Positions 19,029 to 23,179 of a stretch of DNA of 64,000 bases are shown in pieces. The position numbers and the translations under genes were made by a program. How positions within the stretch are numbered: the first letter of the stretch is position 1; each line of letters begins with the position of its first letter. The notes under the pieces were generated by a model that was not told the DNA's origin, ran no database searches, and saw nothing but the letters and a program-made list of their open reading frames with translations. The stretch is from Methylotenera sp. (GTDB taxonomy: Bacteria; Pseudomonadota; Gammaproteobacteria; Burkholderiales; Methylophilaceae), in assembly GCF_029945705.1 (NCBI RefSeq), contig NZ_JAQSDC010000036.1, positions 1 to 64,000 of the forward strand. Reading direction: 5' to 3'.

Positions 19029-19100
19029 TATAAAAAATTTTGTAAGTTTTCTGCGATAACTCCGACCAACTCCTAGTAATCACAAAAAAGGAGTTTGACC

Positions 19101-19871
19101 ATGCGCCTTATCACCAAAGTAGCATTCACTTTAAGCTTAGTTAACCTTGTCTGCCAGCCCGCAATCGCTGCAGAATGTAGCGCCAAAAGCGGCGCAGCAA
19201 CAGTACCCTTACTCGAGCTATATACCTCAGAAGGTTGCAGCAGCTGCCCACCAGCAGATAAGTGGTTAAGTGATTTAAAGCCAGACACTAAAAAAATCAT
19301 TCCGCTCGCTTTTCACGTAGATTATTGGGATTACATAGGCTGGAAAGATAGATTCTCTAAGGCAGAATACTCCGATCGTCAACGTAGAACTGCCGCGTTT
19401 GCAGGCGCTGGTTTTGTCTATACCCCGCAATTTGTATTAAGCGGTCGTGACATGAAAGGCGCAGATACCTCGCGTTTAAACCAAGCGGTTTCTGCCAGCC
19501 AAAAACTAGCCTCGCGTGCCAATTTAAGTCTTGATGCAATGACACAGGCGAACGGTGAAATCACACTCAAAGCCACTGCACAGGCGGTTAACCCCGCAGA
19601 CATTAACAATGCAGATATTTTTGTGGCAATCTATGAAAACAAATTAGTCAGCCAAGTGAATGCAGGTGAAAACAACGGCCGCGAGCTAAAACATGATTAC
19701 GTGGTGCGTGATTTATTAGGCGCTTATCAACTGAGTAATAAAAATGAGTTTGCAAAAACCATAACCTTAAAACCTGAGTGGAAAGGCAGACAAGCAGGCG
19801 CTGTGATATTTGTGCAAAATTCAAAAAATGGTGAGATTTTGCAAAGCTTACAGTTGCCATTTTGTAGCTAA
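19101..19871 (+). CDS. Secreted DUF1223 thioredoxin-like protein
   Basis: A 256-residue protein with a signal peptide (MRLITKVAFTLSLVNLVCQPAIAA). The mature part begins with VPLLELYTSEGCSSCPPADKWL, a thioredoxin-fold start with a C-x-x-C pair (CSSC), followed by LAFHVDYWDYIGWKDRF and GFVYTPQFVLSG with a cis-proline-like TPQ. This is the DUF1223 family; a periplasmic redox role is likely by fold but not established. The ATG at 19101 has AAAAAAGGAG seven bases upstream; a TTG two codons earlier is less likely. It stands alone with its own ribosome binding site. Confidence 0.88.
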   Translation: MRLITKVAFTLSLVNLVCQPAIAAECSAKSGAATVPLLELYTSEGCSSCPPADKWLSDLKPDTKKIIPLAFHVDYWDYIGWKDRFSKAEYSDRQRRTAAFAGAGFVYTPQFVLSGRDMKGADTSRLNQAVSASQKLASRANLSLDAMTQANGEITLKATAQAVNPADINNADIFVAIYENKLVSQVNAGENNGRELKHDYVVRDLLGAYQLSNKNEFAKTITLKPEWKGRQAGAVIFVQNSKNGEILQSLQLPFCS

Positions 19872-19970: not shown

Positions 19971-20831
19971 GTGAACACCGAGCACCCTCAAAAAGGCATT
20001 TTATTCATCTGTGCCGCCGTGTTTCTCTTTGCAAGTAGTGATGCACTCTCAAAATACCTCACCAATTTTTACCCTGTGGTGATGGTGCTATGGGTGAGGT
20101 ATGTGGTGCATGTTTCACTAATGTTAGTCGCATTAAGGCCACCATCATTAAAGTCATTAATCGCCACTCAAAATCCCAAGCTACAGATTATTCGTGGCTT
20201 ATGCATGGTGAACACCAACTTAATGTTTATCAGTGCCTTACACTATATTCCACTAGCGGAAGGCACCGCGATTATTTACCTCAGTCCGTTAATAGTCACG
20301 GCGTTGTCGGCTCCACTTTTAGGTGAGCACATTGCACGTATACAGTGGATTGCGGTAGCCATCGGCTTTATCGGCGTGTTATTCATCGTACGCCCTGGTG
20401 GCAGCATGTTCCACCCAGTCGCTTTGCTGGCCTTAGGTGCTGCTCTCTCGTTCAGCGTGTATCAAATCATTACCAGAAAACTTAACTTTACTGACAGCTC
20501 AAGTACCACAAACTTTATCAGCGGACTAGTGAGCACCTTGGTCACTAGCTTGTTGCTGCCTTTTTTCTGGAAAACACCCTCCCTATATTTTGCATTATTG
20601 ATGGTGATATTAGGTGTATCCGCACTCGTCAGCCACTTATGGATGACCAAAGCCTACCAATACGCAAAACCCTCCACACTTGCGCCTTTTTCATACATGC
20701 AGCTATTATTTGCAGGCTTAATCGGCTATGTCTTTTTTAACCAATTACCAGATTTCTTAGGATTGATTGGCATGCTGGTGATTGTGGCGGGCGGGTTGGT
20801 GGTGTTTAGTAAAATTAGTTACAAAAAATAA
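19971..20831 (+). CDS. EamA/DMT-family transporter
   Basis: A 286-residue inner membrane protein with ten hydrophobic segments arranged as two EamA repeats. The first repeat starts ILFICAAVFLFASSDALSKYL and ends near FIVRPGG; the second starts at VALLALGAALSFSVYQIITRK and ends at VIVAGGLVVFSK. The family moves metabolites such as amino acids or nucleosides out of or into the cell; the substrate here is unknown. The start is a GTG at 19971. It is convergent with the bufferin-like locus. Confidence 0.88.
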   Translation: MNTEHPQKGILFICAAVFLFASSDALSKYLTNFYPVVMVLWVRYVVHVSLMLVALRPPSLKSLIATQNPKLQIIRGLCMVNTNLMFISALHYIPLAEGTAIIYLSPLIVTALSAPLLGEHIARIQWIAVAIGFIGVLFIVRPGGSMFHPVALLALGAALSFSVYQIITRKLNFTDSSSTTNFISGLVSTLVTSLLLPFFWKTPSLYFALLMVILGVSALVSHLWMTKAYQYAKPSTLAPFSYMQLLFAGLIGYVFFNQLPDFLGLIGMLVIVAGGLVVFSKISYKK

Positions 20832-20909: not shown

Positions 20910-21704
20910 CTATGATGCAAACTTAATTAAGGTGACCTTACAAATTAGCCCATTTTCTAACCAGCCAGCTAGATATTGTGCCGCAGTTGCCATGGCTTGC
21001 TCCTCATCCATTTCAACTTCCAGGTTAGCGCAAATTTCTCCAAAGGTTGCTCCCATCACCGCCATATTTAAGGCAATAACTTCCATTTCTGTTGTCAGCC
21101 TAAATTGTGAATTGAAATTCTTTCGCCAAATGAGCCATGATTGATAAGTGCTTTCTTGCGCTGGCTTTGGTGGCATTTCTTCTACTTCGAGCGCTTGCCA
21201 AATCGGTATTGTGTTCCAACGGGTACGGACGAATTTGATGGCGGGTTGAAATTTAAAACTTAGCGCATCCCAGTTTTCTGGCGGAATGGCGGAAAGTTCT
21301 TGCAGACTTAATTCCGGAACATCTTCCGCATCAAAAGCAAGTGATAGCGCCGATTCAAAATCCGCCATCTCAGCGGCGACAGGGTGCTGCGCTAATGTAG
21401 TGAGTAAGTACTCGCGCATCTCACTACCATACCAGCGTAAGTTTCTATAAGTAGAAGGGTAAGCAGTAATATATTCACGGGCAATCTTATTAAACAACAC
21501 GTCGCCTAACAAGGCTTTTAGCTGAGGGTAAGCAGTAGCGAGCGCTTCTATAATGCGAAGTCGATAGGCATCGTGGTAAATACTAAGGCGCTTTTTCGCA
21601 CCTACTTTGTTGTCGTCAATCATCGCTTTTATGAAACTTGAGCTTTTAACATCATCTAATAAATAGGCCTGAAAATCAGCTTGAAGTTTAGCTAGTTGGG
21701 TCAT
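20910..21704 (-). CDS. bufC: DUF2063 partner protein of the MNIO enzyme (BufC/HvfC type)
   Basis: A 264-residue protein. The N-terminal part carries the DUF2063 putative DNA-binding domain signature: LAKLQADFQAYLL, RLSIYHDAYRLRIIEALATAYPQLKALLGD and FNKIAREYITAYPSTYRNLRWYG. In characterised MNIO/RiPP systems this protein pairs with the DUF692 enzyme and helps present the precursor peptide; the DNA-binding label is historical. Its start overlaps the DUF692 gene by four bases (ATGA), so the two are made together. It ends the operon and is convergent with the EamA gene. Confidence 0.88.
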   Translation of the reverse strand: MTQLAKLQADFQAYLLDDVKSSSFIKAMIDDNKVGAKKRLSIYHDAYRLRIIEALATAYPQLKALLGDVLFNKIAREYITAYPSTYRNLRWYGSEMREYLLTTLAQHPVAAEMADFESALSLAFDAEDVPELSLQELSAIPPENWDALSFKFQPAIKFVRTRWNTIPIWQALEVEEMPPKPAQESTYQSWLIWRKNFNSQFRLTTEMEVIALNMAVMGATFGEICANLEVEMDEEQAMATAAQYLAGWLENGLICKVTLIKFAS

Positions 21705-22537
21705 GCTGCTGCTCTGAGTACGTTGGCTGATAGGTCACGTGCGATTTGCAGCTCTTGCACTAGTACATCTAATTCTGGAATGTTGTCATCACGCTCTATC
21801 ATGGTAGAAACGTCTCCAATTTTAGAAATTGCGTAGCCATATAACTCCCACACTGGATCTATGATGGGCGCATCATGAGTATCAATAATATAATCGCCAT
21901 TATTTTGATGCCCAGCTAAATGTATTTGCTGGACTCTCTGTTGAGGAATGCCGTCAATAAATGCTTTTGCGTCAAATTGATGGTTGTAGCTGCTGACGTA
22001 AATATTGTTGACGTCTAATAACAATAGGCAATCGGCTTGCTCACAAATGAGAGAGATGAACTCCCACTCACTCATGTTGGAATCTACATAACTCGCGTAG
22101 CTAGAAACATTTTCCAGTAAAATTTGGCGGCCTAGATAATCTTGCACAATCTTCACACGCTCGGCTACGTGTTTGGCGGTTTCTTCGGTGTAAGGTAATG
22201 GCAATAAGTCATGAATGTTTTGACCGTGTATGCCAGTCCAGCATAGATGGTCAGAAATCCATGCGGGCTGAATTCTATCGGCTAGTTTTTTTAAGTCTTT
22301 TAAATACGTTAGGTCGAATGGCTCTGTAGAACCAATTGATAGTGATACCCCGTGCATCACCACTGGATAATCTGCACGAATACGGTCTAAAAAATTAAGC
22401 GGCAAACCGCCTGGTATCATGTAATTTTCAGAGAGTGCTTCAAACCAATCCACCTGCGGCTTGGTGTCTAAAATAGCATTGTAGTGCTCTGTTCGTAAGC
22501 CAAGACCAAAACCTAAAGCGGGTAAATTGTTACGCAT
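21701..22537 (-). CDS. bufB: DUF692 multinuclear non-heme iron oxygenase (BufB/HvfB type)
   Basis: A 278-residue TIM-barrel enzyme of the MNIO family, which modifies cysteines of ribosomal precursor peptides using two or three iron ions and oxygen. Likely metal ligands are visible: H62 (VMHGVSLS), H97 (ISDHLCW), E142 and N143 (LLENVSSY), D175 (LLLDVNNIYV), H206 and H210 (IHLAGH), H221 (DTHD) and E248 (MIERDD). The segment GFGLGLRTEHYNAIL at the start is also typical. The upstream gene encodes a Cys-repeat precursor and the downstream gene its DUF2063 partner. The product bond (for example thiooxazole) is inferred from relatives, not visible here. Confidence 0.92.
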   Translation of the reverse strand: MRNNLPALGFGLGLRTEHYNAILDTKPQVDWFEALSENYMIPGGLPLNFLDRIRADYPVVMHGVSLSIGSTEPFDLTYLKDLKKLADRIQPAWISDHLCWTGIHGQNIHDLLPLPYTEETAKHVAERVKIVQDYLGRQILLENVSSYASYVDSNMSEWEFISLICEQADCLLLLDVNNIYVSSYNHQFDAKAFIDGIPQQRVQQIHLAGHQNNGDYIIDTHDAPIIDPVWELYGYAISKIGDVSTMIERDDNIPELDVLVQELQIARDLSANVLRAAA

Positions 22538-22576
22538 ATTGATCTCAAATAGTCACGTAATTTATAAATAGCAAAT

Positions 22577-22607
22577 TGAGCATGGCATGCCACCATCACC
22601 ATGCTCA
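22577..22607 (-). promoter_or_regulatory. Hairpin between precursor and modifying-enzyme genes
   Basis: TGAGCATGG (22577-22585) and CCATGCTCA (22599-22607) form a perfect 9-bp stem with a 13-base loop, just after the precursor stop on the minus strand, followed by ATTTGCTATTTATAAA. It could partly stop transcription or protect the precursor mRNA, so that more precursor than enzyme is made; this is inference. Confidence 0.45.
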
Positions 22608-22616
22608 GCTCGACTA

Positions 22617-22967
22617 CTAAACTAAATGACCGCCTTTAGCATCACAATCAGCGCCTGTTAAAGCTAAGTGACCCTGACCCTTACACTCGTTTTGACCCTT
22701 GCATGCGTTTGCAGCAGTTTTGCATGAGCCTTGGCCTTTACAAGCATTGGCTGCAGTTTTACAAGAATTATGCCCTTTGCATGCATTGCCAGCAGTTTTA
22801 CAATCGCTAGTGCCTTTACATGAGTTTACGCCTACACATGCGCCCACTGTGCTATTAGCCGCTGTATTAGTGCCTGCGCCGGTTGCTGCACAGCCTGCTA
22901 AGATAAGTGCCGCGGCGCCAATCGCCAATAGTGCACCGCGACGAGTTTTTGATGTTTCAATAGACAT
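22617..22967 (-). CDS. Bufferin-like RiPP precursor, Cys-repeat lipoprotein
   Basis: A 116-residue protein. The ATG at 22967 has GGAAGGA upstream; a longer ORF to 23051 is not needed. Residues 1-26 form a signal sequence (KTRR, hydrophobic core) with a lipobox LAGC at C26, so it is probably a membrane-anchored periplasmic lipoprotein. The core has cysteines at 44, 50, 56, 63, 69, 76, 82, 89 and 95 (spacing 6,6,7,6,7,6,7,6), made of 13-residue repeats such as CKTAANACKGQGS. The C-terminus ALTGADCDAKGGHLV resembles the end of DUF2282/BufA proteins. It is the likely substrate of the adjacent DUF692 enzyme. Known relatives bind copper after cysteine modification; the metal here is unproven. Confidence 0.85.
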   Translation of the reverse strand: MSIETSKTRRGALLAIGAAALILAGCAATGAGTNTAANSTVGACVGVNSCKGTSDCKTAGNACKGHNSCKTAANACKGQGSCKTAANACKGQNECKGQGHLALTGADCDAKGGHLV

Positions 22968-23179
22968 GATGATTCCTTCCAAATTGATGATAAAAAGCTT
23001 CCATCTCAAGTTTTCTAGACTTCTGAATTTATTGAAGCCTAACAAAATCAATTAGAAACGTAGCGTATTTAATTACGTGAGATTGCATAATTTAGATGCA
23101 TCATGCGCCACACTCAATTTAGTCGTAGTGAATAATCAGTCCTTACAAAATAATTCAAAAAAATTTATATCCTCAGTTG

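Follow-up and report, generated by a model that had tools for sequence, protein, structure and literature searches.

A 64,000-nucleotide stretch of Methylotenera sp. DNA (the window) carries, as judged from its sequence, a true bufferin operon of the known BufA2 family, with a ten-cysteine precursor variant that has a lipobox. We consider it quite likely that this BufA2-type operon is induced under stress by an ECF sigma factor acting in trans, and that its product is a lipid-anchored, multi-site copper chelator. The most surprising result is a putative promoter embedded in the candidate sigma gene, and we think it fairly likely that in many Burkholderiales families this ECF sigma gene holds its own target promoter in region 4 codons; active sigma would then directly induce its anti-sigma factor along with an operon for a metallophore RiPP, and not itself, forming a built-in shut-off loop, and in trans would drive bufferins extended by two-cysteine steps as well as the MsrPQ, DUF1223 and Dsb genes. 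The account is built on computation of the gene families, the lipobox, the number of modules, the conservation of the motif and the genes in the regulon.

The bufferin operon and its ten-cysteine precursor

The genes and sequence elements of the locus are as follows.

22617..22967, minus strand: bufA2 precursor gene, 116 residues (NF050166, 107.5 bits, cut-off 60)
22644..22838, minus strand: ten-cysteine core, residues 44-108, C-x5-C-x5-C-(x6-C-x5-C)3-x12-C, C26 not counted
22683..22799, minus strand: three 13-residue (39-nt) modules KTAxNACKGxxxC, residues 57-95, repeating in tandem with a period of 39
22560..22620, minus strand: hairpin between bufA2 and bufB (-24.5 kcal/mol, z -4.42, a stability reached by 0 of 200 shuffles)
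21701..22537, minus strand: bufB, MNIO (DUF692) gene, 278 residues (NF050167, 387 bits, cut-off 310)
20910..21704, minus strand: bufC, DUF2063 partner gene, 264 residues (PF09836, 78.1 bits)
19101..19871, plus strand: DUF1223 secreted protein gene, 256 residues (PF06764, 214 bits), convergent with the buf operon

The original prediction described three adjacent minus-strand genes with a four-nucleotide overlap of bufB and bufC, both of which are correct, and the curated models (BufA2, BufB and PF09836) agree with its assignment of a bufferin-type locus of precursor, MNIO enzyme and DUF2063 partner in the order bufABC. BufB also matches Pfam DUF692 (PF05114) at 372.7 bits, and BufC reaches 37.9 bits on the HvfC model, under its cut-off of 142. 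A Pfam HMM search gives no DUF2282 match at E≤1, which rules out a DUF2282 (Buf1) bufferin; the precursor is thus unlike the DUF2282 type as had been claimed, but it is an ordinary match to BufA2, the other large bufferin family.

The signal sequence of the precursor ends in a lipobox, LAGC, at C26; lipoboxes were called by pattern in the window and in the survey described below, and lipidation of C26 is a prediction. A lipoprotein with a repetitive cysteine core had been proposed as a distinguishing feature, and the lipobox and the repeats are both present, but as a distinction it was already known, about 16% of Buf2 precursors having lipoprotein signals (PMC12452194) and a subset of bufferins being predicted to be lipidated (preprint PMC12636315). 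Because the Buf2 family and its lipoprotein signals are published in these sources, the non-DUF2282 type and the lipobox are both already known.

The number of cysteines is where the precursor departs from the description in the main text of PMC12452194, which gives six conserved cysteines for 90% of Buf2 precursors and twelve, by domain duplication, for the remainder, as against ten in the window core; other numbers may be listed in the supplements of that report. Since the precursor passes the curated model, the ten-cysteine form is a variant inside the BufA2 family and not excluded from it. A six-cysteine bufferin has one 13-residue module, and the window precursor corresponds to a six-cysteine core with two extra modules, the three 39-nt units sharing 67-74% DNA identity. 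An AlphaFold model of the precursor is of low confidence (pLDDT 53.9) and was set aside.

We surveyed BufA2 in four overlapping sets of 187, 369, 399 and 398 genomes, reading the DNA wherever the match was over the cut-off. Among 204 distinct precursors, 186 have six cysteines (40 of these with a lipobox by pattern), five have two six-cysteine cores, eleven have ten cysteines, one has twelve by modules and one is cut by a contig end. Ten proteins under the BufA2 cut-off (L107-L112 and L196-L199) were dropped before this tally, as were three without the spacing pattern, including L250, which is over the cut-off at 61.3 bits; entries of seven or eleven cysteines are contig-end or repeat-rich cases. 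Ten of the eleven ten-cysteine precursors, that of the window included, are from Methylophilaceae and have a lipobox; L249, from another family, is without one. Five eight-cysteine forms occur in Sphingopyxis-like and Bdellovibrio-like genomes among 82 proteins from named genomes, a query-biased set that partly overlaps the main survey and for which 80 of 199 relatives were kept. Core spacing among BufA2 precursors changes in fixed steps, and module number provides a concrete handle on how bufferin capacity evolves, by modules added in register. We also observed tandem pairs of six-cysteine precursor genes, of which just one encodes a lipobox, ahead of a single bufBC in relatives (L010, L013, L014 and L015). 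An attempt to date the ten-cysteine form on a BufB tree was abandoned, the label changing four times on the best tree; a single clade of eight Methylophilaceae rows (L008 left out) is not rejected (p-AU 0.385).

All ten cysteines are invariant across eleven aligned ten-cysteine proteins and strict conservation extends to few residues besides, as would be expected if the precursor were a plain cysteine-rich metal-binding lipoprotein with its extra modules unmodified. We regard this as very unlikely: bufB and bufC lie directly behind the ten-cysteine bufA2 in the window and in most of the ten-cysteine loci read (L006, L007, L097 and L098 have neither gene in the stretch read), and all eight central cysteines of the window precursor are followed by lysine. 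Several relatives have alanine in place of lysine after one to three of the central cysteines.

The reading that we favor, a modified bufferin, is consistent with the features of the enzyme. BufB aligns with 3bww (E 6.9e-47), and the metal ligands that had been predicted have their residues at the expected places in that alignment: H62, H97, E142, D175, H206, D219, H221 and E248, with D250 as the catalytic aspartate, on what we take to be the MNIO ligand list. Asp251 adjoins the catalytic Asp250, and by a simple pattern an aspartate stands at the equivalent place in 163 of 176 BufB-like proteins, several of the other 13 being misreads of the pattern. An AlphaFold model in PMC13097082 has an aspartate beside the catalytic base contacting the lysine of Cys-Lys substrates; because the lysines behind the central cysteines and D250-D251 of BufB fit that model, we predict, by analogy with Buf1, eight thiooxazoles and one outer disulfide in the mature precursor. 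Modification of Buf2 itself is in print in preliminary form only (PMC12452194). BufC by itself matches no solved structure, and a profile of 41 BufC relatives reaches 3dee, a DUF2063-RRE protein, with a whole-sequence E of 2.2e-4, the best stretch being C-terminal and weak on its own (i-E 0.039); PF22106 is matched in seven of the 41 relatives and is absent from the window BufC.

A promoter-like motif and its probable regulon in Methylophilaceae

Upstream of bufA2, and before the convergent DUF1223 gene, we find the following elements.

23119..23147, minus strand: promoter-like site TGTAAGG-N15-CGACTAA, lying 152 nt upstream of the start codon of bufA2
22968..23113, minus strand: predicted 146-nt bufA2 leader starting at 23113 and carrying a hairpin close to the 5′ end (from the purine rule and hairpin survey given below)
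19041..19069, plus strand: degenerate promoter-like copy TGTAAGT-N15-CGACCAA before DUF1223, with two mismatches

The exact motif has a single match in the window and none in 100 shuffles, and most of the Methylophilaceae bufA2 upstream regions read contain TTGTAAGG-N15-C(C/G)GACTAA; among the side cases, the ten-cysteine bufA2 of L006 is also without the promoter-like motif. The original prediction was right on the class of locus, while most of the differences that it claimed are known, and it overlooked the ten-cysteine module number, this motif, and the motif-sharing DUF1223 gene beyond bufC. Its statement that no regulator or DoxX gene is adjacent is literally correct, but the conserved motif suggests a sigma factor acting in trans, and doxX carries the motif in relatives.

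Across the family the exact motif is present in 57 of 187 genomes, with 102 sites and six control hits as counted from the search table. The spacer is 15 in 94 of 100 distinct sites and 16 in the other six, 14 having also been allowed. The first genes behind these 100 sites, grouped by sequence clustering with representatives checked by Pfam and NCBIfam, are MsrP (32), BufA2 (15), DUF1223 (15) and DoxX (10), followed by thioredoxin with a DsbD-like partner, a BufA2-like variant, sigma-internal sites and cytochrome b (3 each), DsbC (2), MsrA (1) and MsrB (1); the remaining sites precede other or unknown genes, apart from one that has no open frame. The BufA2-like precursor variant lies between the motif and an MNIO gene at L331, L332 and L333 (28.8 bits for L331, cut-off 60). 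Four of the 23 genomes with BufA2 over the cut-off are without the exact motif. The window's own genome has three matches to a shorter pattern, located upstream of bufA2, of msrP and of a gene for DsbC, with one control hit. It is probable that the bufA2 operon belongs to an envelope-stress regulon, which would tie Buf2 bufferins, whose clusters are sigma-free in print, to envelope oxidation and suggest when they are made.

Conservation outside the pattern extends to A-rich stretches on its upstream side and to a purine that follows the -10 by six bases in 86 of the 91 sites compared; this purine is the basis for placing the predicted bufA2 start at 23113. A hairpin within the first 40 nt is present in 13 of 15 bufA2 leaders as against 6.7 expected, with no such excess for msrP (7 of 32, 7.1 expected), DUF1223 (4 of 14, 3.5 expected) or doxX (1 of 10, 2.6 expected). 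This leader hairpin and the one between bufA2 and bufB might raise the precursor over the enzyme. When nine loci were searched for a known RNA family in the leader, the matches up to E 1 numbered two; each scored below the gathering threshold and lay outside the leaders.

The degenerate copy before DUF1223 would be unremarkable alone, the window having eight sites with three or fewer mismatches where 4.4 are expected. However, DUF1223 is convergent past bufC in ten of 13 related loci, and a motif site precedes it in seven of those ten; because the same gene is convergent and carries sites in relatives, the site in the window is credible, and DUF1223 is probably in the same regulon as the buf operon. 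These observations point to DUF1223 as a partner function of the bufferin system; we found no paper in the literature that links DUF1223 with an ECF sigma factor. We also note that an EamA (DMT) transporter gene sits between DUF1223 and bufC (19971-20831, plus strand), and that the H. influenzae RpoE2 regulon includes a DMT transporter gene (PMC7907618).

The composition of the regulon raises the question of whether shielding against hypochlorite and similar oxidants is the main role of the product and metal binding a lesser one, since the regulon repairs methionine and disulfides and does not export copper. The commonest genes behind the motif, msrP, DUF1223 and doxX, are not copper pumps, but copper can itself damage periplasmic thiols and methionines. 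A response to hypochlorite is described for the RpoE2 genes of H. influenzae, among them a DoxX-DUF692-DUF2063 operon (PMC7907618), whereas the bufferins studied so far bind copper and aid growth in excess copper (PMC12452194). We therefore consider a primary role as oxidant shield unlikely, and take copper chelation as the preferred reading in what follows.

The candidate sigma factor and the site embedded in its gene

The second MNIO locus of the genome, on another contig (C40, from 18812; L002/L289), comprises genes for an ECF sigma factor, a zf-HC2 anti-sigma factor, an HvfA-like precursor with EGSCS repeats (25.6 bits on HvfA, cut-off 95), HvfB (393.6 bits) and HvfC. This C40-type sigma is matched in 100 of 187 family genomes, a few of the matches being paralogues or pieces, and in 54 of the 57 genomes with the motif, the three exceptions being 72-89% complete; 46 of the 100 are without the exact motif, and related genomes are not independent. 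In at least two other genomes (G616 and G576) it shares a strand with BufA2 at a distance of no more than about 500 nt, which tempers the report of Buf2 clusters without sigma genes (PMC12452194). Neisseria sigma-E, which governs msrA/msrB and its own operon, uses a promoter with a -35 of GTMAGBWTT, a -10 of CGTCTAAH, a spacer of 12-13 and transcription starting six nt further on (PMC2893595); our motif agrees with this promoter in the -35, spacer and start point and differs by one base in the -10, and a zf-HC2 anti-sigma stands beside the C40 sigma. It is likely, given these correspondences, that the C40-type ECF sigma reads the bufA2 motif. NrsF was considered as the anti-sigma factor and was found in none of 15 genomes.

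No motif site was found directly before or just after the sigma gene, the best matches at 30 loci having four to six mismatches. Within the gene, codons 158-167 in region 4 read TGT AAG G.. (N15).CG ACC AA, a near-copy of the motif that we followed at loci L347-L376, L418-L457 and L460-L486. A start from this site in the window's own genome would be about 72 nt before the anti-sigma gene. Among 61 Methylophilaceae orthologues (≥58% identity) 59 differ from the motif at a single position and the other two at two positions, the embedded -10 usually being CGACCAA.

Such a copy could reflect constraint on the protein, with another sigma factor reading the bufA2 motif. The sigma peptide CKELxI(T/S)xTN is indeed conserved, two of nine paralogues (<50% identity) are likewise within one mismatch, and there is the lack of a site directly before the gene. 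The paralogue set shows little effect as a whole (5.11 mismatches against 5.66 simulated). But the synonymous bases of the C40-type genes are fixed: the 54 orthologues with the RiPP motif downstream average 1.02 mismatches, compared with 2.81 in synonymous simulation (sd 0.13, lowest 2.33 in 1000), the other seven average 1.14 against 2.80, and 27 sigma genes from other families average 1.30 against 3.38 (sd 0.18, lowest 2.78), four of them being perfect. A test independent of the motif gives the same picture, codons 158, 159 and 165 being the top three for third-base conservation both among the 166 columns of 63 aligned Methylophilaceae rows and among the 168 columns of 28 rows under 58% identity (the 27 genes from other families and one Methylophilaceae paralogue, L440), where the remaining codons of the site rank from 34 to 100. 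At codon 165 the third-base G is kept despite a varying residue. The window's own genome has, moreover, only one match to the C40 sigma at E≤1e-10. Protein constraint together with a different sigma factor is therefore quite unlikely, and an embedded promoter is the reading that we prefer. We found no earlier report of a promoter embedded in a sigma gene in the open-access literature, and if it is true, a promoter that constrains the synonymous codons of a sigma gene in many families would provide a clear instance of coding and regulation overlapping.

A proposed route to the product and comparison with known systems

From the computed features we infer the chemistry, metal, lipidation, promoter activity and sigma identity of the following scheme. 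Periplasmic oxidative or copper stress would be the trigger, upon which the C40 ECF sigma would transcribe bufA2BC along with DUF1223, msrPQ and dsbC. BufB and BufC would oxidise the eight Cys-Lys cysteines, probably to thiooxazoles, and the first and last core cysteines would pair. The signal sequence would export the precursor peptide, C26 would be lipidated, and the product on the membrane would be a copper chelator in which Cys-Lys sites are about twice as many as in a six-cysteine bufferin.

The predicted regulon resembles three that have been described. In H. influenzae the RpoE2 regulon takes in msrAB and a DoxX-DUF692-DUF2063 operon (PMC7907618), while that of Caulobacter sigma-F covers DUF692-DUF2063 operons, DoxX and YedY (PMC3511200); with that of Neisseria sigma-E these are small regulons that join DUF692-DUF2063 operons and DoxX with methionine sulfoxide reductases or YedY, and their promoter layout is similar to the one here (PMC2893595, PMC3240639, PMC7907618, PMC3511200). 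Unlike them, the bufferin operon here is distant from the sigma gene, DUF1223 is included, there is a site within the sigma coding sequence, and NrsF is absent from the 15 genomes searched.

The operon itself shares with the Buf2/BufA2 bufferins of PMC12452194 the BufA2 model, the order bufABC, a Sec signal, a Cys-Lys core and an optional lipobox, and differs from those published there in its ten cysteines from repeated two-cysteine modules and its promoter-linked regulon. A lipobox ahead of a modified core is also seen in the DAG-RiPPs, for which lipidation is shown for DybA and NedA, and not for any BufA2 (PMC12636315), whereas here it is predicted. Finally, the HvfABC oxazolin-type locus of the same genome has in common with the bufferin operon an MNIO enzyme, a DUF2063 partner and an exported cysteine-repeat precursor, but its precursor motif is EGSCS-like and its enzyme belongs to the HvfB family.
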